Positions 10,819 to 45,514 of a DNA stretch of 45,514 bases are shown piece by piece; the stretch's first letter is position 1, and each line of letters begins with the position of its first letter. Source of the stretch: Nitrososphaera sp. (GTDB lineage Archaea > Thermoproteota > Nitrososphaeria > Nitrososphaerales > Nitrososphaeraceae). The translations under genes were made by a program, and so were the position numbers. Below the pieces are notes generated by a model. That model made no database searches and was not told the origin of the DNA. It saw only the letters and a list, made by a program, of their open reading frames with translations. The stretch is taken from assembly GCA_013114715.1 (NCBI GenBank), contig QCWB01000003.1, forward strand, positions 1 through 45,514. The letters run 5' to 3'.

Positions 10819-11038
10819 GTTCGCCGGCTACTGCTGCTCTTACAATCTTCTAATGCATAATAAGAAGGTAACTACAGCCTCCCTAGCTAGACGCCTCGGC
10901 CTAGCTAAAGGAACTGTGCAGCACTATAGGAGAGCCCTTGGGGCAGGAAAGCTGGAGAAGTGCTTTCGCTGCCCCAAGGTACTTTACGAACTTAGGCAAC
11001 TTCCGAAGGAACGGAAGACTAAGAAGAAAAAGAGTTAA
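10802..11038 (+). CDS. Small helix-turn-helix protein
   Basis: The product has 78 residues. KKVTTASLARRLGLAKGTVQHYRRAL (about 21-46) is a typical helix-turn-helix, and the end is very basic (KERKTKKKKS). It overlaps the DUF3987-like gene by 17 bases. It may be a regulator or a replication-initiation accessory. It is the last rightward gene; its TAA is followed directly by the stop codon of the leftward late operon, with no base between. Confidence 0.65.
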   Translation: MEQLAKFAGYCCSYNLLMHNKKVTTASLARRLGLAKGTVQHYRRALGAGKLEKCFRCPKVLYELRQLPKERKTKKKKS

Positions 11039-14000
11039 TTACCTTCCCTCTCCCTGCAAGCCCTCATAGGACTGTTCCAGCCTATATTGCTTTATATCTC
11101 TGGGCAGTCCTAACTTTGCTCTTTCCCTAGCCTCTATATATTTTCTAAGAGATTCTTGCAAGGAAGATGCTTCGAGTCCCAATTCAGGAAAAGGAACCTG
11201 CTTCTGGAAAATCCGAATATCCTTCTCTACTCTAGCAATAGCTTCTCTATCATTTGTATAATAGGCAAAGTTCCTTCTATTCAGAAGCTGATTTCGCCAT
11301 GTTGAGTAGTATAATGCTCCTTGCAGTTTCCATGCTTCCTTCTCCCATCCTTGTGTTACTCGAGAAGATTGAAAGCTCAAAGCCATAGCAGCCAGTTCTA
11401 CTTTAGCTACTGGATCGTGCGTTTCAAATGCTGCAATTTTGTCTCCAGCACGGGAGAAAACTCCCTCCCTTGCTGCCGCTCTCATAGTCCTACTTGCATT
11501 CCTAAAGGCGGCAGGTAGTCCTACTTCTGCCCTTGCCCAAGTATCAGGATTGTCTGCAGCTAGAGCCCCAATTAGGCTTACAATGGAAGAGCCAGAAGCA
11601 CCGCTCTCCTCCAGAAGGGAGCCAACAATCTCTGAGCCGGTCATATCCTTATTCTGTCCCAGCTTCTTAATAGTCTTCGTAAAAGGAAGAATATTTCCAA
11701 AGCCGATAGAGTTAGATACGTCTATCTTTGGAAAAGGAAAGCCCAGATTGTCTGCAACGAAGCCGAGACCAAAACTCTCACTCGTAATACCGTGCATAAC
11801 CAGTTCAGGATCAGCACCCAAAGCTCCTATTAGACGGTGCATATCCGCAGACAGCTCAGTATGAGGATCCTTCATTCCCATCCTCTGCTTATACTGAGTT
11901 AGAAGGGCATCAAGAATATCCTCAAGGTCTTCAACGAAGGGAAAACCGGAAAGTCCCGCAAGAGTTAGCAGTCCAAGCCAGAAACGGAAAGCCGCCGGAT
12001 CATTACCAAAGGCAAAGCGGTTAACCGCATTTGCTACAAACTTCATGAAGGGGAATAATGAGCCAGCACGACCTCTACTAAAGCGAGGATTATTCCATCT
12101 CGCATTCTCATTTTGCGTAGCTGAAACAGCTTGCTTAGCAAAAGAGAAAGCTACACTTTGCTGGCCAGTAGGCTCATCCCTAGAGGCACTAGACTCAAAT
12201 GCCAACTTAGCAGCTGCAATAGCTGTTATGTTTCTATTCAGTTTCTCAACCAACTGGAAAGGCACTGCGCCAGCCCAAGATATTTGATAGGCTCCTTGCT
12301 TCCAAGCTGGAAGAAAGGGATTCTGATTCTCTGAATACTCAGAAGCAGCTACCGCAGCTTCCATCATAAGGGACTGGTCAATAAAGCCTTGTGCGGTTCC
12401 CCACTCCAAGAGCTTAATCATCCTTGGATCAGCCTTTTCCGGATTATGCACAATCCTCCACAGTTCATTACTAGCCCAGGAGAGCGAATCCTGTGCTGCC
12501 TTATCTCCAAACCTAGCTGCAAGGTAGGGATAAGTTATCATCGGGATTGAAGCAAAATTCATTGCCGCACTTTTAATATTAAACCCGAGAGACCAGGTAA
12601 AGATAAAGCTGCGAAGAGCGTGCCACTCTACTTGCGGCTCTGTCATATACTCGAAGTGCTCTTTCAGGTAGCTAATTATATCAGAAATCTTATTTGCATT
12701 CTTACCCGCCTCACGGAGAATTTGTGCTCTAGTAGAAAGGTCAGTAATAGACTGTCTAATTACTGGAACATATTCCGTTCTAGCAGTATGAGAAGCATGA
12801 GAAAGAACGAAGGAATTAAATCCTCGAATTAAGTCTTCTGAGTAACCTTCAACTCCCTTCCTTTGCAGAAACCTCTGTTTGTATCCCCTAACAGGAGAGT
12901 TTTCTTCGATTAGGAAGTTTAGTACATCTGTTTGATCCTTTGTCAGAGCAGGCAACTTATCCTTCAAAGCCCGCAAGTAGAAGGCAGGCATTCCCTGTAA
13001 GTCTCTGAATTCATCAATAAACTTAGAAGTAAAGACTTTCGCTGTTGCACCAAAAGTAGCCCGATACTTATTCTCAGCTAACTTCTGCCCAAGCCTTGTC
13101 TCACGAGCAGTAAATGCAATTATCTTACCTTTATCATCATATACGCCAGTTGTCCAGTTTCCATAGCGCATGTGAGGAAAGTACGGCTTTGCTAACATGA
13201 GAGCAAAATCTTTCTCAAGCTCTGCCAACTTCGTGTGCAACTCTAAAGGCTTTTCCGCATAGGTTTCTTTCAAGAGAGCTATCGTACTATTCTTCGCTTC
13301 TAACAAAGAATCAGTAAAGACTTTTCGAATCTGCTTGTAAACTTTTACAGTTTCTTCTGTAATACCTCTATGCTTAAGTTCTACAGCATCATAAAAGATT
13401 CCGTGAAAGTCCTCATCAAAGATCCAATGGGAAAGCTTTTGCCTCTGTGCTTTCGGCAAATCCTTAATCTGCCTAGTAATTTCATCTCCACGGCGAACTA
13501 AGCCAACGCGACGAGCGTGCCAGCGTTCCATACCGCTAACATAGTCTGCGATTTCTGTAATATCTGGATTAATATCCCTCAAGTTAAGTAGGCCAAAGGT
13601 ATTCTTAATCCACCAGTTAAAGCGAACCTTAGCTTCTAAGAATTTATCCAAACTCTCCATATCCCAAAACGCATCTGGGTCCTGAGTATTAAGGATCATG
13701 TTCCTTAACGTCTTATACTTAGTTACCTCTTTCTCGGCATTTTCAGCTATCCAAAGCTTGTTTCTTCCCTCAAACGTAAGGAAGTCCATGTACTTCGTAA
13801 AGCTGTTAATAGAACCAAAGAAGGAAGGTTCGGAAGACAGTGCCCTTATCCCACTAAAGATCTTCTTCATGTCCGCCAGAACATCCTGAGAGAACTTAAA
13901 AAGAGTCTCATCAAACTGGATATTACCTTCTACTATACCAGTAGCAAAGAATTCAGCCATGAACTCAGAAGGACTTGCATAATACCTTAAATCCCCCGCC

Positions 14001-35083: not shown

Positions 35084-38082
35084 TAGGTGCGCACTCCACG
35101 AGGCTTCACAAGATCATAGGCTGGGTCCGCTGAAGTAACTGCGCCACTCGGCCCGTTAATTCTCTTCGCGAGATGAAACTCATCGTAGTAGATTACGCAG
35201 GCAGCAGGCCAATCAGCTGGAACTTCCTGTCCGTCCCCTGAAGCAGTTGTAGGATTACCGTTGCTGTCTACCATATGATCGCTGTAGTTCGGCCATCCAT
35301 GATACATGCCTAAGCGCCAGTACATTCTTGGTGGCTGACCACGAATTTCGGCTGTGTCAAAGCGCCCTATAAGAATGTTGAATTGCTCCGCAACAAGCTC
35401 ATCATTTACCCAAAGCTGGAAGTATCCATCGTAGTTGTCGCTTAACTTGTAACGAAGAACAAAGTCAATCCAGTGTCCACGAAGATCCCAACCTTCAATG
35501 CCGCCAAAGGTACTAGATTGATAGTCCGAGTTGACCTTGTTATAGTTTGCATAAGGCCACTCAGTATTTGGTAGTAGTGGGGCGCTGTAGTGAATACCGT
35601 AAATCTGCATACCGAAGCACGAGCGCCGAGACGGGCAAGGAAGTGACCAAGGCCCTTCAACACCATTTGCATCTACTGGTGCTATGCAGATATATGAGGC
35701 GGACATGATCTTTGACTGCCAAGTGCCGAGCTTCGTCTCTTGGTAAGTTCTTACCGTACCACTGCGTGTTACGGTCGTCTGGTCATATCTCATACCAGTC
35801 GTTTCTGCCGCAAGAATATCTGAACCGAGCTGCTGATATGGGCCCTCAGCACGCACTGCTCGATAGACACGATACTTTGCTGCTCCGGGGACAGAATCCC
35901 ACTCAACACTTAGAGTATGAGCAGCCGAAGATGCCCCACTAATGAAGGAGGACGGCGTCCCTAAAGTAACTTGATCACTTCCACGCTTGTAACGAACTAC
36001 CGGAGCACCGGCGATAACTGGATATGCATTTACGTTTGCTCCGGTAACATTTCGGTTGATTGCCATTTGTTTGAGAGCAAGGGCAGGATTAAAACCCCCA
36101 CTACTAGAGCTGGCTGAAAGTGGCCCATATAGGGCATATTCCGCAGTTGTCATATTGACTGGATGAAGCTGAGGCCCGTCAGACCAGCCGCCCTGAAACG
36201 ACAGCGGTTTAAATTCCGGATCTCCGTAAGGATCATTCGGACCGGGGTAGAACATGGACCAGCCCATCCAGTATTCTACGCCCCTCTCGATACTGTCCAT
36301 TCCGGTTCCGGGGTCAAATATGACTTCGTTTCTGTGTGCAGCATTTGCGTTTGCCGATGCGCCATTCTTGTGAACCCAGTTACCAGGCCCCATTAGGGAT
36401 TGACTGTAGGCAGCGGCACCAGTTGGCCACTGATTTGTCCCGTACTTGTGCTGAACAAGATGAACTCGCATCGACCTGGCCATTTCTCCATTATCCCCAA
36501 CAGGATAGCGAACGCGGACTGTAGAAGTTTCGCATGGATTATTATATGCAGGATCGTAGGCGTCGTGAGAACTGAGGGCATACTGCTTCATGCCACCAGC
36601 AGGAAAAGAAGGAAAATCGAAGCTGTTCTGCCAGAGACTGGTAAGCTGTCCAGAAGTTGCAGCAACTATCGCAGACGCAACTGATTCATTGCCGTCCTTA
36701 GTTGCCGTTACATAAAAGTAGGGAGTCTGAGAATTTGAAAAGTTTGGATTCGAGCCGGAGCCTGTTGAGCTTGCTACGTAGGACGTGCTAGCCCCTGTAT
36801 ACACGAGTACCCAAGGACCAGATATACCAAAAGCTTGGTAAACCTTGTATCCTGTTGGAGTAACACCATCTCCTTGCTCCCACGAGAGAGTCGCTTGAAG
36901 AGGAGAATCACGAGATGCTGAGACATTGATTGGAGGATTCAGAGTAGTTAGTAGGGGACCAGCAGAAAGGATTTCAGTATAACCGGATTTCTTGAAGGCA
37001 TTATCTACTGAGCGAATACGCCAACCGCACTCAACTTGGGCGAAAGCATGATAGGACTCCGACTCGACAGCGGAGACAAGAACACGGGTTACGTAGGCAA
37101 AGTTAATCCACGAACCACCCTCGTCCTTCTCAGTAGAGCGCCAGATGTCTGTACCGAGAAGGCCGCTCTTGTACTCACCGGGAATGGAAGTGTCGTCTGC
37201 CGGATTTGTCCATGTGAGATGCACTAAATCAGCTGAGTAGGAAGTTGCTGCGAAGTTCGTTGGTACGGGAGGAGGCGTAATGTCTTGGGTCTCGACAATG
37301 AAGGTTACCGGAGCACTCTCCTCACTGTGATTAGCCGGGTGCTCGGCATGAGTCAGCAAGAAGGTAATGGAGCCACTGAAAGAACTGGTTGGCGTTCCGC
37401 TAACAACACCAGCGGAGGAGAGCGAGAGTCCTGGCGGTAAGGAGCCAGAAGCTACAGAGAATTGAGGCGTATATTCACTCATGTCCTCGATGTATGTGAC
37501 GAGGTTTAGGTTAAGTGAAGAGCCAACAATTAGATTCTGCGTGCCAGGCGCTCCAAGCCAAAGTGGAGCCTCGTTCTCAGTTGTCTGGAAACTAACAGCA
37601 GCACTCAGTGAGCTCTCGCCAAAGGAAGCTTTAGCTTTTACCTTGACCGAGTATGCAACCCCAGCAGAAAGGCCAATAAATTGTGTTTCTGGAATACTCG
37701 TAGTATTGGCGAGAATGTCGTTCAAGTACCAAAGATAAGAGGTTGCAAAATCAACTGGATCGCACGAAGCAAACCCAGTAGTGGCTGTCTGCCCCTCTGC
37801 GTATAAATTCTCTGGGGTTGACAGCAGGAAACTAGAACCCGGTCTTACGCCGTATGCCTTGCTCACGTCAACCTCAATCGGTGGCTGCTCGATAATGTAA
37901 AGAGAAGGACCATTTCTGGCGTCTGCGAGGGCAATATCTGCGGCGTCAAAAAGGGAAGTGGAGGAGCCGAGAAGGGTTCCTTCCGGAAGTTTCCTGACAA
38001 GGTACTTTCCTTTACGCGTGAACACAAAGATGAAACTCCCGTCATGTATCGGTCTGCCCACGGCGCCAGTAACGGATGCCAT
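35083..38082 (-). CDS. Capsule depolymerase-like fibre with Ig, FN3 and lyase domains
   Basis: From the ATG at 38082 the product has 999 residues (a TTG start at 38148 would add 22). In order: a short head domain; a putative Ig-like domain (SGSLPPGLSLSSAGVVSGTP, about 175-265); two fibronectin-III repeats (about 270-470); then a lyase-like jelly roll. The lyase has HRNEVIFDPGTG and EYWMGWSMFYPG, is broken by another FN3-like insert (VEWDSVPGAAKYRVYRAV), and resumes with WIDFVLRYKLSDNYDGYFQLWVNDELV and YWRLGMYHGWPN, as in heparin/alginate lyase folds. It likely degrades host polysaccharide. Confidence 0.7.
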   Translation of the reverse strand: MASVTGAVGRPIHDGSFIFVFTRKGKYLVRKLPEGTLLGSSTSLFDAADIALADARNGPSLYIIEQPPIEVDVSKAYGVRPGSSFLLSTPENLYAEGQTATTGFASCDPVDFATSYLWYLNDILANTTSIPETQFIGLSAGVAYSVKVKAKASFGESSLSAAVSFQTTENEAPLWLGAPGTQNLIVGSSLNLNLVTYIEDMSEYTPQFSVASGSLPPGLSLSSAGVVSGTPTSSFSGSITFLLTHAEHPANHSEESAPVTFIVETQDITPPPVPTNFAATSYSADLVHLTWTNPADDTSIPGEYKSGLLGTDIWRSTEKDEGGSWINFAYVTRVLVSAVESESYHAFAQVECGWRIRSVDNAFKKSGYTEILSAGPLLTTLNPPINVSASRDSPLQATLSWEQGDGVTPTGYKVYQAFGISGPWVLVYTGASTSYVASSTGSGSNPNFSNSQTPYFYVTATKDGNESVASAIVAATSGQLTSLWQNSFDFPSFPAGGMKQYALSSHDAYDPAYNNPCETSTVRVRYPVGDNGEMARSMRVHLVQHKYGTNQWPTGAAAYSQSLMGPGNWVHKNGASANANAAHRNEVIFDPGTGMDSIERGVEYWMGWSMFYPGPNDPYGDPEFKPLSFQGGWSDGPQLHPVNMTTAEYALYGPLSASSSSGGFNPALALKQMAINRNVTGANVNAYPVIAGAPVVRYKRGSDQVTLGTPSSFISGASSAAHTLSVEWDSVPGAAKYRVYRAVRAEGPYQQLGSDILAAETTGMRYDQTTVTRSGTVRTYQETKLGTWQSKIMSASYICIAPVDANGVEGPWSLPCPSRRSCFGMQIYGIHYSAPLLPNTEWPYANYNKVNSDYQSSTFGGIEGWDLRGHWIDFVLRYKLSDNYDGYFQLWVNDELVAEQFNILIGRFDTAEIRGQPPRMYWRLGMYHGWPNYSDHMVDSNGNPTTASGDGQEVPADWPAACVIYYDEFHLAKRINGPSGAVTSADPAYDLVKPRGVRT

Positions 38083-38491
38083 AGGTTGCAAAGAAGATTG
38101 AAAGTAGGAGAAGCTGATACCAGTAGGGCATTGCGGAAAGGGCGTCAAGTCCGGCCTTAGCGTAGCGGGACCACCCAGGAACGAAGGCCATGATTGCGGG
38201 AATGGAGACTACGATTAGGGTGTACTCGTCCTTCCAGGAAGAGGAAGCTTGGCGGGCAAATTCCATCTCCCAATTCATGTCTGCGGTGAGCCCCTGCTTG
38301 ATTAGCTCGATCTTGCGCTCTGCGAGGGCAGCTTGGATTTGACGTTCCTGGGCCTTGGCCTCGGCACGTATGCGCATACGCTCCCGGTAGATTTCCCCGA
38401 TGAGGGATAGGGGACCGGCTAAGATTTTGCTCAGGATGGAAATACCTTCTCTCCCCTCATGACCTTCGGTGCGGTCCTTCGAGGGTAGCAT
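38042..38491 (-). CDS. Holin candidate (3TM-type family)
   Basis: The product has 149 residues. A charged helix (35-68) is followed by two membrane segments, about 89-105 (EYTLIVVSIPAIMAFVPGW) and 121-141 (MPYWYQLLLLSIFFATYGIRYW). The pattern SSWKDEY, then IP, FVPG, P-WY and YGIRYW matches the 3TM-type holin family first described for gene transfer agents. It would open the inner membrane for the amidase, although it stands 17 kb from that gene. It is the first gene of the leftward late unit, under operator copy 4. Confidence 0.65.
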   Translation of the reverse strand: MLPSKDRTEGHEGREGISILSKILAGPLSLIGEIYRERMRIRAEAKAQERQIQAALAERKIELIKQGLTADMNWEMEFARQASSSWKDEYTLIVVSIPAIMAFVPGWSRYAKAGLDALSAMPYWYQLLLLSIFFATYGIRYWRRGQTDT

Positions 38492-38536
38492 ATTAGCTCG
38501 GTCTTCTTCGGATTAATAGGCGGGCGCGTGGATTAT

Positions 38537-38576
38537 AAATGTGGGATAGTTACTATGTAGTAATTATGCGATATTT
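38537..38576. promoter_or_regulatory. Symmetric palindromic operator, copy 4
   Basis: This is the fullest form of the element: AAATGT, GGG, ATA, then the core GTTACTATGTAGTAAT (38549-38564), then TAT, GCG and ATATTT, so both arms are present. A leftward -10 box TATAAT (38537-38532, minus strand) lies at its edge, which puts the core over the spacer and -35 region of the late promoter. Binding there could repress or activate the late genes. Confidence 0.75.
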
Positions 38577-38681
38577 ACTTGGAGTAGAAGCGCGGAGTGA
38601 GAGGCAATCAAATTCCGGGGCGGTAGCCTCGGCTCTGGGGGGAGCGCGGCTATCCTGAATGCAAATCATTCGTCTTTTGAT

Positions 38682-38735
38682 TTCGATTCTCATTCTTACT
38701 TCGATTCTCATTCTTACTTCGATTATCCTTCTCAT
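38682..38735 (+). repeat. Three 18-bp direct repeats (iteron-like)
   Basis: TTCGATTCTCATTCTTAC occurs at 38682-38699 and 38700-38717, and a variant TTCGATTATCCTTCTCAT at 38718-38735, with a partial fourth start at 38736. GCAAATC (38661) and GATTTGC (38739) enclose the array as an inverted pair. Iterons bind replication or partition proteins, but a simple purine/pyrimidine expansion is also possible. Confidence 0.7.
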
Positions 38736-38814
38736 TTCGATTTGCCCGAGCCAGCCAGGCCGTCCTCGAGGTTGTCCGTCCAATCGCCGCCCGAAAAAAA
38801 TTTTCAAACACCCC

Positions 38815-38843
38815 TTGCAAAACCCCGGCCGGTATGTTATCGT
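38815..38843 (+). promoter_or_regulatory. Rightward promoter candidate
   Basis: TTGCAA (38815-38820), a 17-base spacer and TATCGT (38838-38843) with TG one base before the -10 (extended -10) lie 75 bases before the gene at 38919. It is weaker than the promoter at 1366. It would drive the two genes ended by the terminator at 39702. Confidence 0.5.
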
Positions 38844-38918
38844 TTGCCCGTGGTCGGATGTTCCGGCCGCTCCCCAAGACTAGCTTCTCGGGGATGTTAT
38901 TTCAAACTGGAGAGTAAG

Positions 38919-39431
38919 ATGGCAATTGAACGCGTGTTCGAGCCGGGAGGGTCCGTTTGGACCCTCAAGACCGAGAGCGGCACCAAGTCATGCGACTTGG
39001 CCGACTTGTCGGCCGGAATGCGGGCGGCCGTGCTGATGCACGGCCTCAACGCAAAGCTCGGAGATTCATTCTCCGGAGCGAAAAAGGCCGTGGAGTCGGG
39101 GGAGTACTCGTCGGTAGACGAGTACGCTCTTGACTGCGTGGAGCAGGTTTGGGAAAACCTGCTGAATGATACGTGGACTGACCGGGCAGGACCGCGCGGA
39201 GCCCGCATTGGCGACATCGCCCTCGCGCTCACTCGAGCGCGTCCGGAGCGGTTCCCCGATCTCGGGGCCGCCAAGGCTTTCCTGAAAGGCAAGGCCGAGG
39301 AGGATCTTGTCAAGTTCAGGACGGCAATGGCTCCGCACCTCGCCGCCATCGCCGAGGAACGGGCTCGCGCCCGCAGGGAAGCCGCAGAGAAGCGCACGGA
39401 TGCGAAGGGACTGGACGCCCTGCTGGACTGA
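38919..39431 (+). CDS. Hypothetical protein (170 aa), hairpin-rich gene
   Basis: The product has 170 residues; the ATG at 38919 follows GGAGAGTAAG. It starts with a small beta domain (VFEPGGSVWTLKTESGTKSCDLADL), continues with helices, and ends with a basic coiled coil (EERARARREAAEKRTDAKGLDALLD). I do not recognise it. The gene is GC-rich and its coding strand folds into one short perfect hairpin after another (see the hairpin array at 38947). It forms a two-gene unit with the next gene, from the promoter at 38815 to the terminator at 39702. Confidence 0.7.
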   Translation: MAIERVFEPGGSVWTLKTESGTKSCDLADLSAGMRAAVLMHGLNAKLGDSFSGAKKAVESGEYSSVDEYALDCVEQVWENLLNDTWTDRAGPRGARIGDIALALTRARPERFPDLGAAKAFLKGKAEEDLVKFRTAMAPHLAAIAEERARARREAAEKRTDAKGLDALLD

Positions 39432-39630
39432 CCGAAAACTGAAAGCGGGGAGCATGGAGGCTCCTCGCCTTCTCTTGCGGAGGAAGGCAATGAATAGTTT
39501 TGTGGCTTACCTCGTCACGGAGGAAAGCATGAAAAGAGGCGTCGCCATCCGGCATCCGGATGGCCGAACCTTCCCGACGGAGGACGGCCCAGTCGATAGT
39601 GTCGGCTGGGCCACTGGCAACATTGTTGCC
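38947..39630 (+). repeat. Array of perfect hairpins in coding sequence, block A
   Basis: Successive perfect stems with short loops: GAGGGTCC/GGACCCTC (38947-38966, loop GTTT), CCAAGTC/GACTTGG (38983-39000), GGCCGAC/GTCGGCC (38999-39014), GGCCGTGC/GCACGGCC (39026-39045, loop TGAT), CGGAGA/TCTCCG (39059-39075), GTACTCGTC/GACGAGTAC (39104-39125, loop GGTA), AGCAGGTTT/AAACCTGCT (39142-39163, loop GGGA, a GNRA type), CGCGCTC/GAGCGCG (39224-39241), CCCCGA/TCGGGG (39254-39267), GCCATCCG/CGGATGGC (39544-39564), GGCCCAG/CTGGGCC (39586-39612), GGCAAC/GTTGCC (39616-39630). No two stems share a sequence. Confidence 0.85.
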
Positions 39631-39696
39631 GTGCTCGAATACCGGCCAGGACAGAAGATCCGGGAAGAAATCCCTTTCGGGGCGACTGACGCCTAA
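39490..39696 (+). CDS. Hypothetical protein (68 aa)
   Basis: The product has 68 residues; GGAGGAAGG stands directly before the ATG. It has a beta fold with HPDGRTFPTEDGPVDSVGWATGNIVAVLEY, unrecognised. It is the second gene of the unit that begins at 38919 and is followed 5 bases later by a strong terminator. Three perfect hairpins lie within it (39544-39630). Confidence 0.65.
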   Translation: MNSFVAYLVTEESMKRGVAIRHPDGRTFPTEDGPVDSVGWATGNIVAVLEYRPGQKIREEIPFGATDA

Positions 39697-39701
39697 TTCC
39701 C

Positions 39702-39730
39702 AGCCCCGGTCTGATCCGGGGCTTCTTTTT
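39702..39730 (+). terminator. Rho-independent terminator
   Basis: AGCCCCGG (39702-39709) and CCGGGGCT (39716-39723) form a perfect 8-bp stem with loop TCTGAT, followed by TCTTTTT. It ends the two-gene unit 38919-39696. Confidence 0.93.
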
Positions 39731-39914
39731 GCCTTCTCTTCACTAGAATCCGACCACCTTCTAGTATATATAGAGCGGCCGGACGGCCCGCGGTCCGCGG
39801 TCGATGCGATCCATTCGCATCTACTCCGCAGTTCCACTATTAATGCCGCACATTAACCCAAAGTAGCAGCCCTGTGTTCCCCGTGCATGGTCCCTAATTC
39901 CCCTGTAGCATGGC

Positions 39915-40066
39915 CCTGTGGCCCATTGGCCCTACGGGCATCCCCCCGGAGGAGGTTAATATACCACCTTAATTTTTTTTTTTTTTTTCTTTAAGTAGTA
40001 TAAGAGCAACTCCGGGTCCATTCGGGTCCGTCCGGGCATCGGGGGGTAGGGCCAATGGAACACAGG
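39915..40066. repeat. Long-range imperfect inverted repeat
   Basis: CCTGTGGCCCATTGGCCCTAC at 39915-39935 is complementary to 40046-40066 except at two positions; the arms are 110 bases apart and enclose the T16 tract. Words such as GGGCATC followed by a C or G run lie beside both arms. A fold of this size could form a cruciform in DNA or a large hairpin in RNA. Confidence 0.75.
39949..39993 (+). terminator. Terminator-like hairpin with T16 tract
   Basis: AGGAGGT (39949 and on) and ACCACCT form a short stem with one mismatch and loop TAATAT, followed by AA, 16 T, C and TTT. It has the look of a terminator, but transcription from the left should already stop at 39730. The tract may serve as an unwinding element instead. 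Confidence 0.5.
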
Positions 40067-40155
40067 ACCATCCACCTAGCCGCACAGGGACCATTCCCAA
40101 GGACACCAGGGAACATCGCACCGTAATTCTCTCCTCTCACTTTCCCCCCTTAATC

Positions 40156-40183
40156 ATTACTACATAGTATTTATACTACATAT
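40156..40183. promoter_or_regulatory. Palindromic operator, copy 5, with -10 box
   Basis: The core ATTACTACATAGTATT (40156-40171) is followed by TAT, a 3-base gap and ACATAT, the complementary arm. A rightward -10 box TATACT overlaps the right edge (40172-40177), so the core fills the spacer of a promoter with a poor -35. Only one arm is present. It precedes the rightward unit that starts at 40275. Confidence 0.65.
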
Positions 40184-40274
40184 TGTTGCGCAAATACCAC
40201 TTGCACCCGCGATCAAAATATGCGACCATATGCCCGTGCCACCCATTGCGCACATAACCCAACCGGAGAACACA

Positions 40275-40319
40275 ATGGAACAGGACAACAAGTCCTTTTG
40301 GCGGGCTACAGAGCCATGA
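40275..40319 (+). CDS. 14-residue leader peptide candidate
   Basis: The frame MEQDNKSFWRATEP has a good site (GGAGAA, 5 bases before the ATG), and its stop overlaps the ATG of the next gene as ATGA. It may be a leader peptide that couples translation to the gene at 40316. There is no other evidence for function. Confidence 0.45.
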   Translation: MEQDNKSFWRATEP

Positions 40320-40462
40320 CTACTTACCTGGCAACCCTGCGGGTCAACGACAGGTCCGCCCTCCTCGCGGACACCCGCCAGACACTCGATGGCATCCTTG
40401 ATGCCATCGACAGCGGGTTCCTGGAAACAGTGAAGAAGAAAGAAGGAAGAAGCAAGAAGTAG
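40316..40462 (+). CDS. Hypothetical small protein (48 aa)
   Basis: The product has 48 residues. The start at 40316 is coupled to the 14-residue leader; a longer frame from 40220 has an N-terminus that does not look like protein and lacks a ribosome binding site. The protein is a helix-rich small domain (RQTLDGILDAIDSGFLETV) with a basic end (KKKEGRSKK). Two perfect hairpins lie in its coding sequence. Confidence 0.5.
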   Translation: MTTYLATLRVNDRSALLADTRQTLDGILDAIDSGFLETVKKKEGRSKK

Positions 40463-40880
40463 GAGACTCGCTCATGCACAAAGGAATACTTCAAGACGAC
40501 CTGCTCGATACCCTAATCGAGCAGGCCGACGCCAAGGCGCAGACTTCCCCTGCGGAAGTCCTGCGAGAAATCGCAGCCCGACTGGAAGCTCTCCAGTCGG
40601 GAATCTTCCTTCATCCGAAGCGAGTCATCCTTCGGATGAACCACTGCCATTGCGCCTCTTGCGTCCGCTCTTGGACGCAAGAGGAGGGACTCTACCTCTA
40701 CTCCGAATCAAGGAACGGAAAGACAAAGGAAACCCGACTCATCTCTTTCCTTTCTCCTTCCTACTCGCCTCTTCCTCGCTCAATCGAACGAGGAGAGGAT
40801 CAGATCTTCCCCTTCTGCTTCAGCTGCTTTAAGGTGAAGCAATGAATGCCGAAGAAGCCGAGAAGGAAAAAGCCCTTCTC
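40354..40880 (+). repeat. Array of perfect hairpins in coding sequence, block B
   Basis: Stems in order: GTCCGC/GCGGAC (40354-40372); TCGATGGCATC/GATGCCATCGA (40386-40410, loop CTT); CCTGCTCGAT/ATCGAGCAGG (40500-40525); GACTTCC/GGAAGTC (40542-40560), which grows to 11 pairs with one bulge; CTGCGA/TCGCAG with a GAAA tetraloop (40561-40576); CCCGACTGGA/TCCAGTCGGG (40577-40601); TTCATCCGAAG/CTTCGGATGAA (40610-40640); CCTCTTGCGTCC/GGACGCAAGAGG (40655-40684, 12 pairs); AAAGGAAA/TTTCCTTT (40725-40753); a bulged 10-pair stem (40768-40798); TGCTTCA/TGAAGCA (40816-40841); GAGAAGG/CCTTCTC (40860-40880). From 40500 to 40684 hardly a base is outside a hairpin. Confidence 0.92.
40474..40845 (+). CDS. Zinc-binding hypothetical protein (123 aa), hairpin-rich gene
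   Basis: The product has 123 residues. Residues 1-45 are helical; HCHCASC (about 57-63) and CFSC near the end (116-119) make a likely zinc site, with a variable Ser/Arg-rich loop between them. GGAG lies 9 bases before the ATG. I do not recognise the family. Its coding sequence is the most hairpin-dense in the window, with codons in the stems chosen so that both arms pair perfectly. Confidence 0.65.
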   Translation: MHKGILQDDLLDTLIEQADAKAQTSPAEVLREIAARLEALQSGIFLHPKRVILRMNHCHCASCVRSWTQEEGLYLYSESRNGKTKETRLISFLSPSYSPLPRSIERGEDQIFPFCFSCFKVKQ

Positions 40881-41195
40881 AGCTTAAAGGCACACTGCAC
40901 AACTGCGCAGTACGACAGTCTCGTCTTTCGTCTTGCCGCAGTCTTTCACATAAAGGCTCTACGCGAAACAGCAGCCGCTCGTCTCGGCATAGAGTTAAAC
41001 CCAGAAGAAGAAGAAGAAGGAACCATCCTAGACAAGATCAAACTTGTTTGCGCAGATCTCAATATCAAGGAATATCCTTGCCAAGTCCTTTACAACTGCA
41101 CCATTTCCGGCCAGTTCTATCAGGACTGGCTCGAGGCCGGTAAGGGCATTCCCGATCCCCCCAGAGAAGAAATTAAGAAAGGAGTCAAGAGATGA
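40842..41195 (+). CDS. Hypothetical protein (117 aa)
   Basis: The product has 117 residues, ATGA-coupled to the zinc protein upstream. It is helical (LLSLKAHCTTAQYDSLVFRLAAVFHIKALRETAAARLGI), with a short acidic run coded by GAA repeats and a second helical half with Cys and Tyr residues. It is unrecognised. Smaller perfect stems occur here, for example CAAGG/CCTTG near 41066 and GCCAGT/ACTGGC near 41110. Confidence 0.6.
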   Translation: MNAEEAEKEKALLSLKAHCTTAQYDSLVFRLAAVFHIKALRETAAARLGIELNPEEEEEGTILDKIKLVCADLNIKEYPCQVLYNCTISGQFYQDWLEAGKGIPDPPREEIKKGVKR

Positions 41196-41539
41196 AGAGA
41201 CCATTCACCCGCGTCTGTACAACCCTGCTCACGCAGGAATGCCTTAAGGCAGCAGATGACTTTTTAACCGCACGGGAGATCGCAAACCGTACAGGCGAGT
41301 CCATGCACCGGGTAGGCGCAGCCCTACACTTCCTCAGAAAGAAGGGAGCAGTAGACTGCCTTTCCGTTCCCGTAGGACAAGCCTACTCACTCTTTTGGTT
41401 CCTTACACTAGAGACAGACAGCAGGAGCCGCATCCTTACGGAAATAAAGGCCGAAATCAAGAAGCCTAAGAGAAGGAAGAAGCAGAATCTTCCTACTTCT
41501 AAGGAGAGCAAGGATGAACATTCGCTTCAGAATCATTAA
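41192..41539 (+). CDS. Putative winged-helix DNA-binding protein
   Basis: The product has 115 residues. DDFLTAREIANRTGESMHRVGAALHFLRKKGAVDCLSV (about 22-59) fits a winged helix: helix-turn-helix followed by a hairpin wing. The end is very basic (KKPKRRKKQN). It is ATGA-coupled to the gene before. It could bind one of the operator copies, but so could the RHH protein at 2327; the sequence cannot tell. Confidence 0.6.
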   Translation: MKRPFTRVCTTLLTQECLKAADDFLTAREIANRTGESMHRVGAALHFLRKKGAVDCLSVPVGQAYSLFWFLTLETDSRSRILTEIKAEIKKPKRRKKQNLPTSKESKDEHSLQNH

Positions 41540-41687
41540 CCAGTCCGCTTTAAGAGAAAGGTATCAAGCCGATGGAATCATTCCCCCAGTTCCTCTTGTC
41601 TGCCCTTCTCGAATTCCTCCTGTACGCTCTCTTACTCTGGCTACTCGCCCGTTCCTCAAGGGAATAGGCAGAAAGCCCAAGGAGTAG
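41514..41687 (+). CDS. Small basic hypothetical protein (57 aa)
   Basis: The frame starts with AAGGAG 9 bases upstream of the ATG and overlaps the end of the winged-helix gene by 26 bases. The 57 residues are basic with several prolines and no visible domain. A second frame inside it (41572-41667) codes for a membrane helix, so either one or both may be real. Confidence 0.45.
   Translation: MNIRFRIINQSALRERYQADGIIPPVPLVCPSRIPPVRSLTLATRPFLKGIGRKPKE
41572..41667 (+). CDS. Candidate nested single-span microprotein (31 aa)
   Basis: From the ATG at 41572 the frame has 31 codons. After MESFPQ comes an almost unbroken run of Leu, Ala, Phe, Tyr and Trp (about 20 residues), then a basic end RSSRE, as in a single-span membrane peptide with its C-terminus in the cytoplasm. 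GAGAAAGG lies about 10 bases before the start. It is nested in another frame of 41514-41687. Confidence 0.4.
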   Translation: MESFPQFLLSALLEFLLYALLLWLLARSSRE

Positions 41688-41691
41688 AATC

Positions 41692-41883
41692 ATGCTTACA
41701 AAAGAAGAACTTCTTGCCACCGCTCAAGAATGCCTCGAAGAGGGAGACGATAACGCCGCAGTCTGTCACTCCTGCGGAGCCGTATACTACGGCTATGAGC
41801 CCGATACTCGCAAAGCCCAATGCGAGGAATGTGGCGCCTTCGCACTCTACGGTTGCGAAGAAATCCTCTTAATGTACGCCTAG
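41692..41883 (+). CDS. Small zinc-ribbon protein (63 aa)
   Basis: The product has 63 residues. CHSC (25-28) and CEEC (44-47) have the spacing of a zinc ribbon; the start is an acidic helix (KEELLATAQECLEEGDDN). AAGGAG lies before the ATG. Small zinc ribbons of this type are frequent in phages, often of unknown role. Three perfect hairpins lie in the second half of the gene. Confidence 0.65.
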   Translation: MLTKEELLATAQECLEEGDDNAAVCHSCGAVYYGYEPDTRKAQCEECGAFALYGCEEILLMYA

Positions 41884-41920
41884 ATCGCATCTCACATGGA
41901 GGTTCAACCGAGCCTCCATG
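41778..41920 (+). repeat. Perfect hairpins, block C
   Basis: AGCCGTA/TACGGCT (41778-41794, loop TAC), CTCGCA/TGCGAG (41807-41826), CTTCGCA/TGCGAAG (41838-41860), all inside the zinc-ribbon gene, and CATGGAGG/CCTCCATG (41895-41920) just after it. Smaller stems go on into the next gene: CCCAGA/TCTGGG, GCCGTA/TACGGC and ATCACG/CGTGAT between 42100 and 42180. Confidence 0.8.
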
Positions 41921-41954
41921 CAGCTGCAATCTCGCAGACGAAGGAGAAGAGAAG

Positions 41955-42305
41955 ATGAAAGAGAAGATGAAAGAGAAGATGCGCAAGCCTACCAAAGTAT
42001 ACCTTAGCTACTCCATCTACGGGGAAAAAGAGCAGAGAATTTACCGCTTCTCGAACGGCTACGGGGCCTCAGTAATTCGTGGCCCGTTCACCTATGGAGG
42101 CCCAGACGGCCTCTGGGAACTTGCCGTACTCTACGGCGAAGATATTTGCTACTCAACAGTCATCACGCAGGACGTGATCGGCTTCCTTTCAGAAGCTCGA
42201 GTCAATGAGATTCTCGACCAGATCGAGGAACTTCCGCCAAGGCCAGAAGGAGAAGGAGAAGGAGAAGGAGGAGAAGGAGAAGGAGGAGAGTTCAATGCAA
42301 GCTGA
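41955..42305 (+). CDS. Hypothetical protein with Gly-Glu tail
   Basis: I start at the ATG at 41955 behind AAGGAGAAG; the ATGs at 41967 and 41979, in a 12-base repeat AAAGAGAAGATG, are alternatives. The product has 116 residues: a beta domain (VYLSYSIYGEKEQRIYRFSNGYGASVIRGPF) and a helical part, then a Gly-Glu repeat tail coded by GGAGAA repeats, just as in the gene ending at 2330. It is not recognised. It overlaps the kinase gene by 11 bases. Confidence 0.6.
   Translation: MKEKMKEKMRKPTKVYLSYSIYGEKEQRIYRFSNGYGASVIRGPFTYGGPDGLWELAVLYGEDICYSTVITQDVIGFLSEARVNEILDQIEELPPRPEGEGEGEGGEGEGGEFNAS
42246..42290 (+). repeat. GGAGAA microsatellite acting as coding repeat and RBS
   Basis: Repeated GGAGAA and GGAGGA units encode the Gly-Glu tail of the upstream gene and end 5 bases before the ATG of the kinase gene, so they also supply a chain of Shine-Dalgarno sites. 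This is the same layout as at 2277-2326, 40 kb away, with a different repeat unit. Confidence 0.8.
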
Positions 42306-42699
42306 GCTCATTATCCTCCGCGGACTTCCAGGTTCAGGCAAGTCTACACTTGCTCGTGAAGCCTACCCCAGTCATATCCTTATCGAGGCAGATGATTTCT
42401 TCTACTTGCCGAACGGCACATATGCCTTTAATCCTCGCTACCTCAGGATAGCGCATGCTACCTCTCTAGCACGAGTAGAATTCCTCCTCCTAAACGGATA
42501 TAGGACTGTCGTAGCTAACACATTCACTCGTCTTTGGGAATTCTTACCCTACATCACCTTCTGCTCCAAGCACCAGATTCCCTTTCGCGTAATTCACTGC
42601 ACAGGAGAGTACAGAAATAATCACAACGTTCCGCCAGAAGCCATCCAGCGAATGAAAGACCGCTGGAACACCTACAAAGGCGAGGAGACTTACCCATGA
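42295..42699 (+). CDS. P-loop kinase-like ATPase (AAA_33/polynucleotide kinase type)
   Basis: The product has 134 residues, with start at 42295. GLPGSGKST (10-18) is the Walker A loop; HILIEADDFFYL and the helix HATSLARVEFLLLNGYRTVVANTFT follow as in the AAA_33 family that includes polynucleotide kinase 5'-kinase domains. It may phosphorylate 5' ends of RNA or DNA, or a small molecule. In T4 such a kinase repairs cut tRNA together with a ligase; no ligase was seen here. Hairpins in the same transcription unit could be a substrate, but that is speculative. Confidence 0.75.
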   Translation: MQAELIILRGLPGSGKSTLAREAYPSHILIEADDFFYLPNGTYAFNPRYLRIAHATSLARVEFLLLNGYRTVVANTFTRLWEFLPYITFCSKHQIPFRVIHCTGEYRNNHNVPPEAIQRMKDRWNTYKGEETYP

Positions 42700-42974
42700 G
42701 CTACTCTTATTCCATCTACTTACCAGACGAAACCACTCTCGAGATAGATTTCACCTACTCTCCCGGTCATCCAGGTTCCTTTTATAACCGACACGGCGAT
42801 CCCGGAGATCCTCCCGAACCAGCGGAGGTCGAAATCCTATCTGCAACCCTCGCCTTCGGAGCCTACCAATTCGATGTCTCCGACACAAGGAAGTGGCCTT
42901 CAGACCTCGAACAGAGAGTTTTCGAGGAACTCGAGGAGGAGGGAGAGGCCCTTCTGGAGGAAAGTAGGTCATGA
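42696..42974 (+). CDS. Hypothetical acidic protein (92 aa)
   Basis: The product has 92 residues, ATGA-coupled to the kinase gene. A beta domain (YSIYLPDETTLEIDFTYSPGHPGSFYNRHGDPGDPPEP) is followed by a very acidic helix (EQRVFEELEEEGEALLEESRS). It is unrecognised. It is the last gene of phage-typical base use before the GC-rich block. Confidence 0.6.
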   Translation: MSYSYSIYLPDETTLEIDFTYSPGHPGSFYNRHGDPGDPPEPAEVEILSATLAFGAYQFDVSDTRKWPSDLEQRVFEELEEEGEALLEESRS

Positions 42975-43021
42975 AGATCATTGGCAAAGCCACCTTGCGC
43001 AGAACACGGGAGGCGACATGA
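42971..43021 (+). CDS. 16-residue mini-ORF at module border
   Basis: MKIIGKATLRRTREAT starts on an ATGA overlap with the previous gene and stops on an ATGA overlap with the next. It is very short and basic and may be a remnant of a gene cut by recombination. It marks the change of base and codon use at about 43000, as the mini-ORF at 422 does on the other side of the block. Confidence 0.35.
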   Translation: MKIIGKATLRRTREAT

Positions 43022-43266
43022 GCGATTTGGAGAGGTTGTTTAACGCGCAGGCTGTCAGCGCCCGATGGATGGCAGAGCATGAAAACACCGGCGCCAGGCT
43101 TGAGATCGCACTGATCAAAGAGCGCGCGGCGTATCTACTATCTCAGCATGAGCCTGTCGCATCGCTTGGCCTGGATCGCGAGGCGCTACGGGCTGCACTC
43201 TCGTATCTGTGGCATGGGAGCGAACAGCAGGCACTATGCGATTTCTTCAAGGGGAAGAAGCTATGA
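43018..43266 (+). CDS. Hypothetical helical protein (82 aa), GC-rich module
   Basis: The product has 82 residues. GGGAGG lies before the ATG. The protein is helical (LFNAQAVSARWMAEHENTGARLEIALIKERAAYLL). The family is not recognised. It opens the compact block of small genes in GC-rich style, each overlapping the next by a few bases. Confidence 0.6.
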   Translation: MSDLERLFNAQAVSARWMAEHENTGARLEIALIKERAAYLLSQHEPVASLGLDREALRAALSYLWHGSEQQALCDFFKGKKL

Positions 43267-43439
43267 GCAAGGCCAGCGACATCGCGCAGATGATCGAGGA
43301 CTGCGAGGCGCGCGACTCGAAACTCTCCGAATGGGAGCAGCAGTTCATCGACTCAATAAGCCGGCAGCTCGCCAAAAACGGCTCGCTGTCGCAGAAGCAG
43401 AGAGAGCGGCTTGAAATCATCTGGGAGAAAGTGACATGA
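43263..43439 (+). CDS. Hypothetical helical protein (58 aa)
   Basis: The product has 58 residues, ATGA-coupled. The sequence IEDCEARDSKLSEWEQQFIDSISRQLAKNG with KQRERLEIIWEKV is like a small conserved protein seen in several phages, of unknown function. It is wholly helical. Confidence 0.6.
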   Translation: MSKASDIAQMIEDCEARDSKLSEWEQQFIDSISRQLAKNGSLSQKQRERLEIIWEKVT

Positions 43440-43504
43440 CGAGCATTGATTCGACGAGCGACGAGCGCACGAGAGAGGGGGAGAGCGATGCCGCGCCGCG
43501 CTAA
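43436..43504 (+). CDS. Very small ORF (22 aa)
   Basis: This 22-codon frame is ATGA-coupled to the gene before and ends inside the start of the next gene. It is polar (Ser/Asp/Arg/Glu). It may only serve to keep ribosomes moving to the start at 43488. There is no further evidence. Confidence 0.3.
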   Translation: MTSIDSTSDERTREGESDAAPR

Positions 43505-43691
43505 GGAACGTCGTGAACTGCGTAGATACTTCGTCTTGGCCGAGGACGGCTATTACGTCTACTGGCCACCACAGGAGAAGAGAGGCGCCCTTGGGTCGCG
43601 TCATTTACGCTGGATTGCGGATGAACTCGACAAAGCCAATGAGGCTCTGGACGCGCCTCGTGAGGAGAACGATGATGCCGAAGGTAAGTGA
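43488..43691 (+). CDS. Hypothetical protein (67 aa)
   Basis: The product has 67 residues from the ATG at 43488, with GGGGGAGAG upstream. It starts very basic (PRRAKERRELRR), then YFVLAEDGYYVYWPPQEKRGAL, a small beta hairpin, and ends with an acidic helix. It is unrecognised. The frame could be extended upstream to 43446, but the extension lacks a site. Confidence 0.55.
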   Translation: MPRRAKERRELRRYFVLAEDGYYVYWPPQEKRGALGSRHLRWIADELDKANEALDAPREENDDAEGK

Positions 43692-43878
43692 TGCTGAGCT
43701 GCGGTTTCATGCGAAGAGCGACGGGCCGCAACCATTACAGGACATCGCCCGCGAACTGCTCGCGGCTCGGGCGATGATGAAGATGGCGAAAAAAGAAGGG
43801 TTCGGGTGCCGCGCGGAAGACAACTGCGGGTCTCCGCTGTGCGCCGCTATCCGAAACTACGAGGAGGTAATCAAATGA
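43672..43878 (+). CDS. Hypothetical protein (68 aa)
   Basis: The product has 68 residues from the first of two adjacent ATG codons, with GAGGAG upstream. It is helical (QDIARELLAARAMMKMAKKEGF), then has three Cys (CRAEDNCGSPLC) that could bind a metal. It overlaps its neighbours at both ends. It is unrecognised. Confidence 0.55.
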   Translation: MMPKVSDAELRFHAKSDGPQPLQDIARELLAARAMMKMAKKEGFGCRAEDNCGSPLCAAIRNYEEVIK

Positions 43879-44306
43879 ACAAACCAATCCCCGCCTTGGA
43901 CGAAAACGGCGAGTTCGTAGTGGCCGTCTGCCACGATGGTTCACGCATCCCGATCTACACGTTGGAGAATGAGCAAGGCCAGATAGTCGGCGAATTCCGG
44001 TGGTGGAAGCAGGACGGTACCAGCATCTGTGAGAGCTACCCGGAGATGCGCATTCGCAACCTCGACGAGCTGCGCGCCACGGTCGAGCGTGCGCAGAGGA
44101 AGCGTGAGGCCGAGGCAAAGGAACTGAACTATGACGGATCAAAGTGGCATGAGTACACAGATTGCCCAAAGCAAACTGGATGCGAGTATTGCTTAAGGGC
44201 TCGCCCCACCTTCGCAGAGGCGCTGCAAGCCGAAGCCGGTGATGCGGGCGACTTCTGTCTGATGCACATGATAGAGCGCGCACGCCGCGCATCGGAGGGA
44301 CCGTGA
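43875..44306 (+). CDS. Hypothetical protein (143 aa)
   Basis: The product has 143 residues; GGAGG lies before the ATG. A beta-rich N-terminal domain (EFVVAVCHDGSRIPIYTLENEQGQIVGEFRWWKQDG) leads to helices and a pattern HEYTDCPKQTGCEYCLRARP that may bind zinc, with a final His/Cys pair (CLMHM). I do not recognise it. Confidence 0.55.
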   Translation: MNKPIPALDENGEFVVAVCHDGSRIPIYTLENEQGQIVGEFRWWKQDGTSICESYPEMRIRNLDELRATVERAQRKREAEAKELNYDGSKWHEYTDCPKQTGCEYCLRARPTFAEALQAEAGDAGDFCLMHMIERARRASEGP

Positions 44307-44665
44307 GCGACTGCTACCGTGACGACGGTACAGGTACGGAGGATTGGGGCGTGACTCGCATCACTGACCAGATGAAGGCGTGGCCGGGTCTGGGCTGCGG
44401 GCCGGACCCGCTGGCCGACTTCGGCCGCGAGTGCCAGCACGGCCACCTGCGCCGCAAGTGCGAGGTGTGCGAGGTGCTGGCTGAGCGCATTGCCATCGAG
44501 GCCCGTCTGCGCACGACCGCCGAGGCGCTGCGCAAGGCGATCGCAAAAGCAGATAGCTGGACGCATGACCAACTGGACGGCACATCATTGCTGGACGAAG
44601 CACTAGCGGAACTAGACGGTGAGCGCGCCATCCTCGCTGCACTAGAGAAGGAGGGATTGACATGA
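44303..44665 (+). CDS. Hypothetical protein (120 aa) with Cys/His cluster
   Basis: From a GTG start on a GTGA overlap the product has 120 residues. CQHGHLRRKCEVCEVLAERIAIEARLR is a Cys/His zinc-type cluster with a helix, seen in small phage proteins of unknown role. It ends in LEKEGLT, because the ribosome binding site of the DHH gene is embedded there. Confidence 0.55.
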   Translation: MSDCYRDDGTGTEDWGVTRITDQMKAWPGLGCGPDPLADFGRECQHGHLRRKCEVCEVLAERIAIEARLRTTAEALRKAIAKADSWTHDQLDGTSLLDEALAELDGERAILAALEKEGLT

Positions 44666-45498
44666 AGCCACTATGCATTTACCACGGCAACTGCGCTGAC
44701 GGGTTCGGCGCAGCGTGGGTCTTTAAGCGGTTTGCGGATCGCGAGTTTGATTTTCATGCCGGCATCTATCAGGACGCCCCGCCAGACGTAACAGGCCGCG
44801 ACGTATATCTAGTCGATTTTTCGTACAAGCGTCCTATTGTTGAGGCCATGCTGGAGCGGGCAAGCCGGGTGGTGCTGATAGACCACCACAAGACGGCGAT
44901 CGACGACTTGCGGCCATTGATCGACTCGCGGAGGATCGAATCGTTGTGCAGCCTGGAACACTCCGGCGCCGTCTTGGCGTGGCAGTGGTTCTGCGGCAAT
45001 AATCACGATGACAGTATGCCAAAACTGCTCGCGCACATTGAGGACCGCGATCTGTGGCGGTTCGCGCTGGAGCACACCCGCGAAATCCAGGCCAACGTGT
45101 TCAGCTACCCATATGACTTCGATGTATGGGACGAGCTGATGGAGACAGACCCGCAGAAGTTGGCCGAAGAAGGCGCTGCTATCGAGCGTAAGCACTTCAA
45201 GGACATTGCCGAGTTAATCGGCGTTGTCACGCGCGAACTCGTGATTGGCGGGTACAGAGTCCCTATCGCTAACCTGCCGTATACCCTGACATCCGATGCG
45301 GGCCACGCGCTCGCCAAAGGCCGGCCGTTTGCCGGTTGCTACTGGGACACGCCAGACGGGAGAGTATTCAGCCTGCGATCCCAGGAAGATGGCATCGACG
45401 TATCGGAGATCGCAAAACTGTATGGCGGCGGCGGTCACAAGCACGCCAGCGGGTTTCGTGTTCCTTTCGCGCAACTTGAGAAGGAGGGATTGGCATGA
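44662..45498 (+). CDS. DHH-family phosphoesterase
   Basis: The product has 278 residues. Metal-binding motifs are HGNCADGFG (H8, D13), a central Asp in LVDFSYK (D52), and DHH at 74-76 (VLIDHHKTA); the DHHA1-type end has GGGGHKHASGF (255-265). The family includes RecJ, NrnA oligoribonucleases and cyclic-dinucleotide phosphodiesterases. The short length fits nanoRNase or a small phosphoesterase, not RecJ. A phage copy may recycle short oligonucleotides or degrade a signal nucleotide; the substrate cannot be told. The 3' half appears again at the left contig end with differences. Confidence 0.85.
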   Translation: MKPLCIYHGNCADGFGAAWVFKRFADREFDFHAGIYQDAPPDVTGRDVYLVDFSYKRPIVEAMLERASRVVLIDHHKTAIDDLRPLIDSRRIESLCSLEHSGAVLAWQWFCGNNHDDSMPKLLAHIEDRDLWRFALEHTREIQANVFSYPYDFDVWDELMETDPQKLAEEGAAIERKHFKDIAELIGVVTRELVIGGYRVPIANLPYTLTSDAGHALAKGRPFAGCYWDTPDGRVFSLRSQEDGIDVSEIAKLYGGGGHKHASGFRVPFAQLEKEGLA

Positions 45499-45514
45499 GC
45501 GAGCGAGACGAACT
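45074..45514. repeat. Right copy of imperfect terminal direct repeat
   Basis: This stretch matches 1-441 with 14 substitutions and no gaps and runs to the last base of the contig, 13 bases into the mini-ORF that is complete at 422-475. It shows that the sequence after 45514 is the sequence after 441, so the genome closes on itself. Confidence 0.9.

Follow-up and report, generated by a model that had tools for sequence, protein, structure and literature searches.

Dense hairpin chains in the presumed earliest genes of a tailed phage

The first rightward genes of the phage contig studied here are packed with short-loop hairpins created by the choice of synonymous codons, and it is likely that selection acts on the coding-strand mRNA. 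As the best explanation we propose, giving it about an even chance, that the early mRNA is kept generically folded by selection and that the folding serves as armour. The window, i.e., the whole stretch of DNA analysed, is one entire contig of 45,514 bp from an assembly of 229 contigs. It encodes a large terminase, a portal-type protein, an SU10-type major capsid protein, a DNA polymerase and a DHH phosphoesterase; because the first four of these tailed-phage proteins are present, the contig can be assigned to a tailed dsDNA phage. The late genes point leftward and extend from 38491 to 11039; the replication genes and small genes point rightward, from approximately 38919 to the contig end and onward from the contig start to approximately 10818. 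A control region separates the late from the early gene group, and the hairpins occupy the first rightward genes. On the basis of this gene order, the two hairpin blocks, A and B, are presumed to be the earliest transcribed genes. A search of host-family genomes and genome contigs found no close relative.

Block B folds far below shuffled controls

Block B (40354-40900) has a folding energy of −239 kcal/mol, whereas dinucleotide shuffles reach −166.5 ± 7.0 kcal/mol (z = −10.3). For the reverse complement, z is −10.6, so the strength of the fold is approximately equal on both strands. A window-scale folding scan of the contig placed the lowest z-scores at the hairpin blocks. The first-pass annotation had located the feature in block B; the folding there is indeed extreme, but it is not confined to this block, as described below for block A.

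All genes and stems of the two blocks are given for the + strand. The first gene of block B (40316-40462, 48 aa; the ORF list gives it in a longer form, 40220-40462) has a codon-shuffle z of −4.1 in the sense and −1.8 in the antisense direction and contains a short stem at 40354-40372 and a perfect 11-bp stem with the 3-nt loop CTT at 40386-40410. The second gene (40474-40845, P0002) encodes a Cys-rich protein of 123 aa (CHCASC...CFSC), for which homologue searches found nothing, and reaches a codon-shuffle z of −8.6 to −9.0 in the sense direction. Here we find perfect stems of 10 bp at 40500-40525 (6-nt loop ACCCTA), 10 bp at 40577-40601 (5-nt loop AGCTC), 11 bp at 40610-40640 (9-nt loop) and 12 bp at 40655-40684 (6-nt loop GCTCTT). 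Between the first two of these lie a 7-bp stem with the loop CCTGC (40542-40560) and a 6-bp stem closed by a GAAA tetraloop (40561-40576). Farther along there are an imperfect stem of 16 pairs (40717-40761), a stem of 9 pairs with one mismatch (40773-40794) and, in the third gene, a stem of 12 pairs with one mismatch (40855-40885). An imperfect stem of 10 pairs (40816-40841) covers the presumed ribosome-binding site of this third gene (40842-41195, 117 aa, P0003; codon-shuffle z −3.7), along which the structure weakens. Thus, all five perfect stems of 10, 10, 11, 11 and 12 bp, with loops of 3-9 nt, that had been noticed on first inspection are present, and the count of at least twelve hairpins also holds, as we arrive at approximately twelve when the short, 7-bp, GAAA-loop and imperfect stems are included.

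The density of stems exceeds chance, as had been claimed: the 45.5-kb window contains 20 perfect stems of at least 8 bp, against 2-9 in composition-matched shuffles. Mobile palindromic repeats of the REP/RPE type are copies of one repeat sequence. Block B differs from them, since it contains no direct repeats of at least 10 bp and the stems of the window share words of no more than 6 nt, which agrees with the earlier view that the stems are not copies of a mobile element.

A second chain lies across the control region

Block A (38880-39780) is a second hairpin chain, comparable to block B (z = −9.8), with approximately eight stems of 7-11 bp and loops of mostly 4 nt within two genes. The first of these, the hairpin-packed P0004 gene (38919-39431, 170 aa), has a codon-shuffle z of −5.8 sense and −1.8 antisense in 120-nt windows, and of −4.6 and −4.1, respectively, in 100-nt windows. 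Its perfect stems are of 8 bp at 38947-38966 (loop GTTT) and 39026-39045 (TGAT) and of 9 bp at 39104-39125 (GGTA) and 39142-39163 (GGGA); 7-bp stems are found at 38983-39000 (ATGC) and 39224-39241 (ACTC). The second gene (39490-39696, P0005, 68 aa), an ORF with GGAGG upstream, gave a codon-shuffle z of −3.0 in one run and −4.1 in another, and carries a perfect 9-bp stem with the loop CAT (39544-39564) and an 11-bp stem that includes one T-G pair (39586-39612, loop TAGTG). Block A is followed by an intrinsic terminator, an 8-bp stem and a T run, at 39702-39735. Between blocks A and B, a noncoding control region (39852-40110) forms an imperfect inverted repeat about a T16 axis at 39973-39988, and this element is a candidate replication origin or control element.

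Hairpin chains recur at the same place in related phages

Six relatives, several of them distant, carry chains at the equivalent genome place, made of different hairpins. The chain is weaker in L116 and strong in L213, L216, L261, L217 and L235, five phages that came from a terminase-based scan and one further search. A peak of stem density is seen at this place in six phages; in L261 the hairpins extend over up to 4 kb of early genes. The layout of L116 (contig G122) matches that of the window, with a P0004 homologue, a terminator, an inverted repeat with a poly-T axis and early genes, and its most structured genes include the P0004 homologue and the early genes beside the poly-T element. The counterpart of the control region in L116 is an imperfect inverted repeat with a T-run axis at 8060-7390 (− strand), and most relatives have a lone poly-A/T run at the equivalent place. 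The P0004 family has members in many related phages, with homologues in A2 and in 14 of 33 relatives; a single-sequence search for P0004 homologues returned none.

Most other relatives, including some with the same layout, have no hairpin chain, a statement that is not always safe on short contigs. On the terminase tree the trait requires at least four to five changes and therefore repeatedly arises or is lost. As most relatives do without it, the feature is not essential to such phages. A hairpin cluster in L027 was considered as a further case and rejected, because it sits in a stretch without clear genes and is a different thing.

Synonymous codon choice makes the pairing

Here, we permuted synonymous codons within each gene, which keeps the protein and the codon counts fixed. 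The genes at 40474-40845 (z approximately −9) and 38919-39431 (approximately −6 to −7) rank first and second among the 48 ORFs of the contig, while the other window genes have a mean z of −0.30. Since the codon-shuffled controls are far less folded, it can be concluded that the synonymous choices create the pairing. The earlier proposal to set the folding of the block, against codon- and dinucleotide-shuffled controls, beside that of other genes thus gave a clear answer, the block being lower by both measures.

The count of stems was extended to 33 block genes from seven contigs, two of these genes having boundary or frame errors; the misframed one was excluded later (n = 32). The 33 genes contain 84 perfect stems of at least 7 bp, against 13.7 ± 3.3 after codon shuffling. 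The stems are 7-14 bp long, and the loops are mostly of 4-6 nt, 4 nt being the commonest length (28 of 84). For the six larger contigs, 178 non-block genes gave a ratio of perfect stems to codon-shuffled expectation of only 1.54. This weak excess of short perfect inverted repeats is strand-symmetric, as template-switch mutation predicts. The register of the stems relative to codon phase (17/26/41) was tried as a signal and proved uninformative, being identical to that of codon-permuted controls.

Selection on local mRNA folding in coding sequences is general; the folding is weak at the start codon, stronger in the gene body and set by synonymous codons (PMC7063772). The blocks resemble this pattern: synonymous codons are responsible, most block genes begin behind a Shine-Dalgarno-like sequence, and the pairing probability, 0.65 in the gene body, drops to 0.47 in the first 15 nt. 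They differ in being several-fold stronger, in consisting of discrete perfect hairpins and in involving few genes. The main functional rival to shielding is pacing, in which the structured transcript would slow down or time the passage of ribosomes or RNA polymerase along the first genes, with Rho exclusion, R-loop prevention near a replication origin or translational coupling of successive genes as examples of variants. Coding-region folding has been linked to the regulation of translation across life (PMC7063772), which we count in favour of such pacing, as we do the position of the chains next to the noncoding poly-T element, a possible origin, and the hairpin over what is presumed to be the ribosome-binding site for the third gene of block B (40842-41195). 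However, the mean codon-shuffle z of −3.55 in 32 block genes, compared with −0.87 in 108 other genes of the same phages, goes far beyond the ordinary bias, and there are relatives of the same layout that lack the feature. We thus regard pacing as unlikely to be the explanation.

The coding-strand mRNA is the likely target

The fold as such is nearly symmetric, and we separated the strands by the kind of interruption within stems. If DNA hairpins or palindrome-making mutation were responsible, G-T and A-C interruptions should be equally frequent, whereas selection on mRNA should enrich G-U alone. Stems of block genes with one G-U interruption were doubled (30 against 14.7 ± 3.7 expected), while those with one A-C interruption, which is G-U on the other strand, were not (13 against 12.3), nor were stems with other mismatches (44 against 48.3). 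Control genes showed no asymmetry (ratios of 1.33 for G-U and 1.30 for A-C). The mean sense-minus-antisense folding z was −0.71 in blocks and −0.11 in controls. The G-U/A-C contrast weakens for longer stems, and the interrupted stems of the window by itself are too few for the test. L213, L216 and L261 are closely related and have some stems in common, so the stem counts are not fully independent and the p-values are optimistic. Taken together with the symmetric controls and the slower synonymous change of stems (see below), the doubling of G-U but not of A-C makes the coding-strand mRNA the likely target of selection. An antisense RNA had been suspected from + strand A-C pairs in several imperfect stems of block B; the larger strand tests ruled against it. 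Counting G-U- against A-C-interrupted stems is a simple means, applicable to any genome, of telling selection at the RNA level from mutation that makes palindromes.

The same test bears on the possibility that the hairpins work as single-stranded or cruciform DNA, in the manner of N4 promoters or as replication or packaging signals. The stems are perfect Watson-Crick helices near a possible origin, as would suit such a role. On the other hand, the G-U preference distinguishes the strands, the loops vary and have no common motif, and the hairpins are spread through coding sequence. Promoters of the N4 virion RNA polymerase are few, short-stemmed, sequence-specific hairpins with 3-nt loops upstream of genes. 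The blocks share with them hairpins in phage DNA near early genes; they differ in their many stems of 7-14 bp, their mostly longer loops, their position inside genes and the RNA type of selection. An N4-type phage encodes a virion RNA polymerase; the proteins scanned here gave no polymerase-type hit of this sort, and the 1868-aa protein encoded at 11039-16645 (− strand) shows weak similarity to DarB-like antirestriction and large uncharacterised families. Given the long stems, the varied loops, the G-U preference and the position inside genes, the earlier suggestion of N4-type promoters is not supported, and we consider any DNA-level role extremely improbable.

Individual hairpins are retained for a time and then replaced

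The terminases of L213, L216 and L261 are almost identical, their early genes have diverged (down to 34% protein identity), and all three are hairpin-rich; their hairpin region undergoes very fast evolution or exchange. Orthologues were compared in gene-wise codon alignments, as a whole-region alignment of L216 and L261 was misaligned past the orthologous part. Among the better-conserved orthologues of the three phages, synonymous third-position differences were found at 34 of 128 sites in stems (0.27), compared with 17 of 34 in loops (0.50) and 343 of 816 elsewhere (0.42). The slower change in stems has p = 9e-4, an optimistic value since both directions were counted. Among the aligned examples are a compensated pair in an intergenic stem, changed loops between intact arms in coding stems, and a double change from A-T to G-C in one coding stem. 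The earlier proposal to look for compensatory changes in relatives gave a mixed result: stems change more slowly, but only 35 of 81 stem pairs altered on both sides remain Watson-Crick, which is little over chance. When fixed-helix covariation was sought in the most diverged orthologue pairs (approximately 34% protein identity), no stem conservation was found, and the substitution-level G-U/A-C contrast was not significant in the conserved orthologues alone. The two longest hairpins of L213 lie within or beside segments missing from L216. Hairpins are retained for a time and then replaced. The codon-shuffled controls, the absence of copied stems and the relatives all agree with the original proposal that selection favoured pairing and left the reading frame intact.

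A purely mutational origin has to be weighed here. Template switching at quasi-palindromes is a known hairpin-creating mechanism (PMC8794818), and it would write perfect inverted repeats into fast-evolving small genes whose proteins tolerate them, without any function. This would account for the excess stems being mostly perfect (at 8 bp, 53 perfect stems where 5.9 were expected), for the hairpin turnover, including the L213 segments that L216 lacks, and for the weak strand-symmetric excess in control genes. It predicts strand symmetry, however, whereas the enrichment is seen for G-U stems and is absent for A-C stems, and orthologue stems show fewer synonymous changes, not more. Nor does it explain a single genomic place in separate lineages or the relatively open start sites. 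Hence we find it distinctly unlikely as the whole cause, while template switching may well supply the raw material for hairpins.

It has also been proposed for the coding palindromes of Nematomorpha mitochondria, which have a mean length of 43 bp (up to 142 bp) and a mean spacing of 37 bp, are scattered and are possibly functionless (PMC6649704). These are the nearest described phenomenon: perfect inverted repeats lie in translated genes with the frame kept, many are species-specific, and gain and loss are rapid. They differ from the phage chains in length, placement and proposed cause, the phage stems being short-looped, of 7-14 bp, restricted to one early-gene region, asymmetric in coding-strand G-U and synonymously slower. 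Palindromes of the Nematomorpha type, if maintained by conversion, should show no excess of imperfect repeats, whereas G-U-interrupted stems are in excess in the phage blocks.

The turnover also bears on the idea that the genes overlap a discrete structured RNA with a regulatory, packaged, decoy or defence-triggering role. Overall folding is strong, as such an RNA would require, yet no fold is conserved across relatives and the 84 block stems have no loop motif in common. The sponge RNAs of CsrA/RsmA present GGA in hairpin loops, while GGA occurs in only 8 of the 84 block loops. An Rfam scan of 38000-45514 returned only two matches up to E = 1, far under gathering scores and outside the blocks. 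The packaged or regulatory RNA suggested by the first-pass annotation is thus not borne out, and we judge any discrete RNA highly improbable.

Folding may protect the early mRNA

Our preferred explanation remains that selection keeps the early mRNA folded in a generic way. Through their synonymous codons, the genes next to the divergent control region would encode a further message besides the protein: the transcript may fold while it is being made and form a row of short-loop hairpins of approximately 7-12 bp, with ribosome-binding sites and start codons comparatively open. Selection would favour general folding of the coding-strand RNA, neither particular hairpins nor a sequence-specific binding site, and under such selection hairpins should be gained, lost and shifted fast while the folded state is maintained. 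The folding would leave scant single-stranded RNA to endoribonucleases, be they host decay enzymes or RNA-cutting and RNA-guided defence, in the first minutes of infection. RNase III prefers long duplexes, and the stems would be shorter than these. Among the roles proposed at the outset, resistance of a folded mRNA to nucleases or RNA-guided attack fits best, with early timing, shielding and the identity of the enemy being what we infer. The lack of a shared motif argues against a specific binding protein. That the chains keep to one region speaks against mutation acting genome-wide, and their scattered distribution among relatives against a core function.

The genome-scale ordered RNA structure (GORS) of RNA viruses and the folded genomes of ssRNA phages concern RNA genomes that are structured over their whole length. 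The phage blocks resemble them in having many unrelated coding-sequence hairpins, defined against shuffled controls and not by one fold, and in an extended coding region far below its shuffles (with codon-shuffle z down to −9 in addition to the block values given above). The difference is that the genome here is dsDNA and only the mRNA of a few genes is structured.

A wider reading, that dense hairpins of rapid turnover, written in synonymous codons, armour the first mRNAs of some tailed dsDNA phages as a repeatedly gained counter to RNA-cutting or RNA-guided bacterial immunity, is tentative and in our view rather doubtful. In the literature searched we found no report of such phage blocks, nor of strong, localised and recurrent mRNA-structure selection inside dsDNA phage genes. 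If protection of early mRNA is true, it would be a passive, sequence-independent evasion of RNA-targeting immunity or host mRNA decay. The region codes for protein and RNA shape at once, and hairpin-free relatives and the late genes of the same phage provide natural controls.

Other features of the contig

Folding energy is also very low at 10801-11160, the junction of the convergent gene groups, which is probably a bidirectional terminator. Early ORFs at 2225-2530, 3049-4074 and 41820-42305 contain low-complexity runs (poly-Arg, poly-Ser and KEKMKEK repeats), which suggests triplet-repeat slippage.
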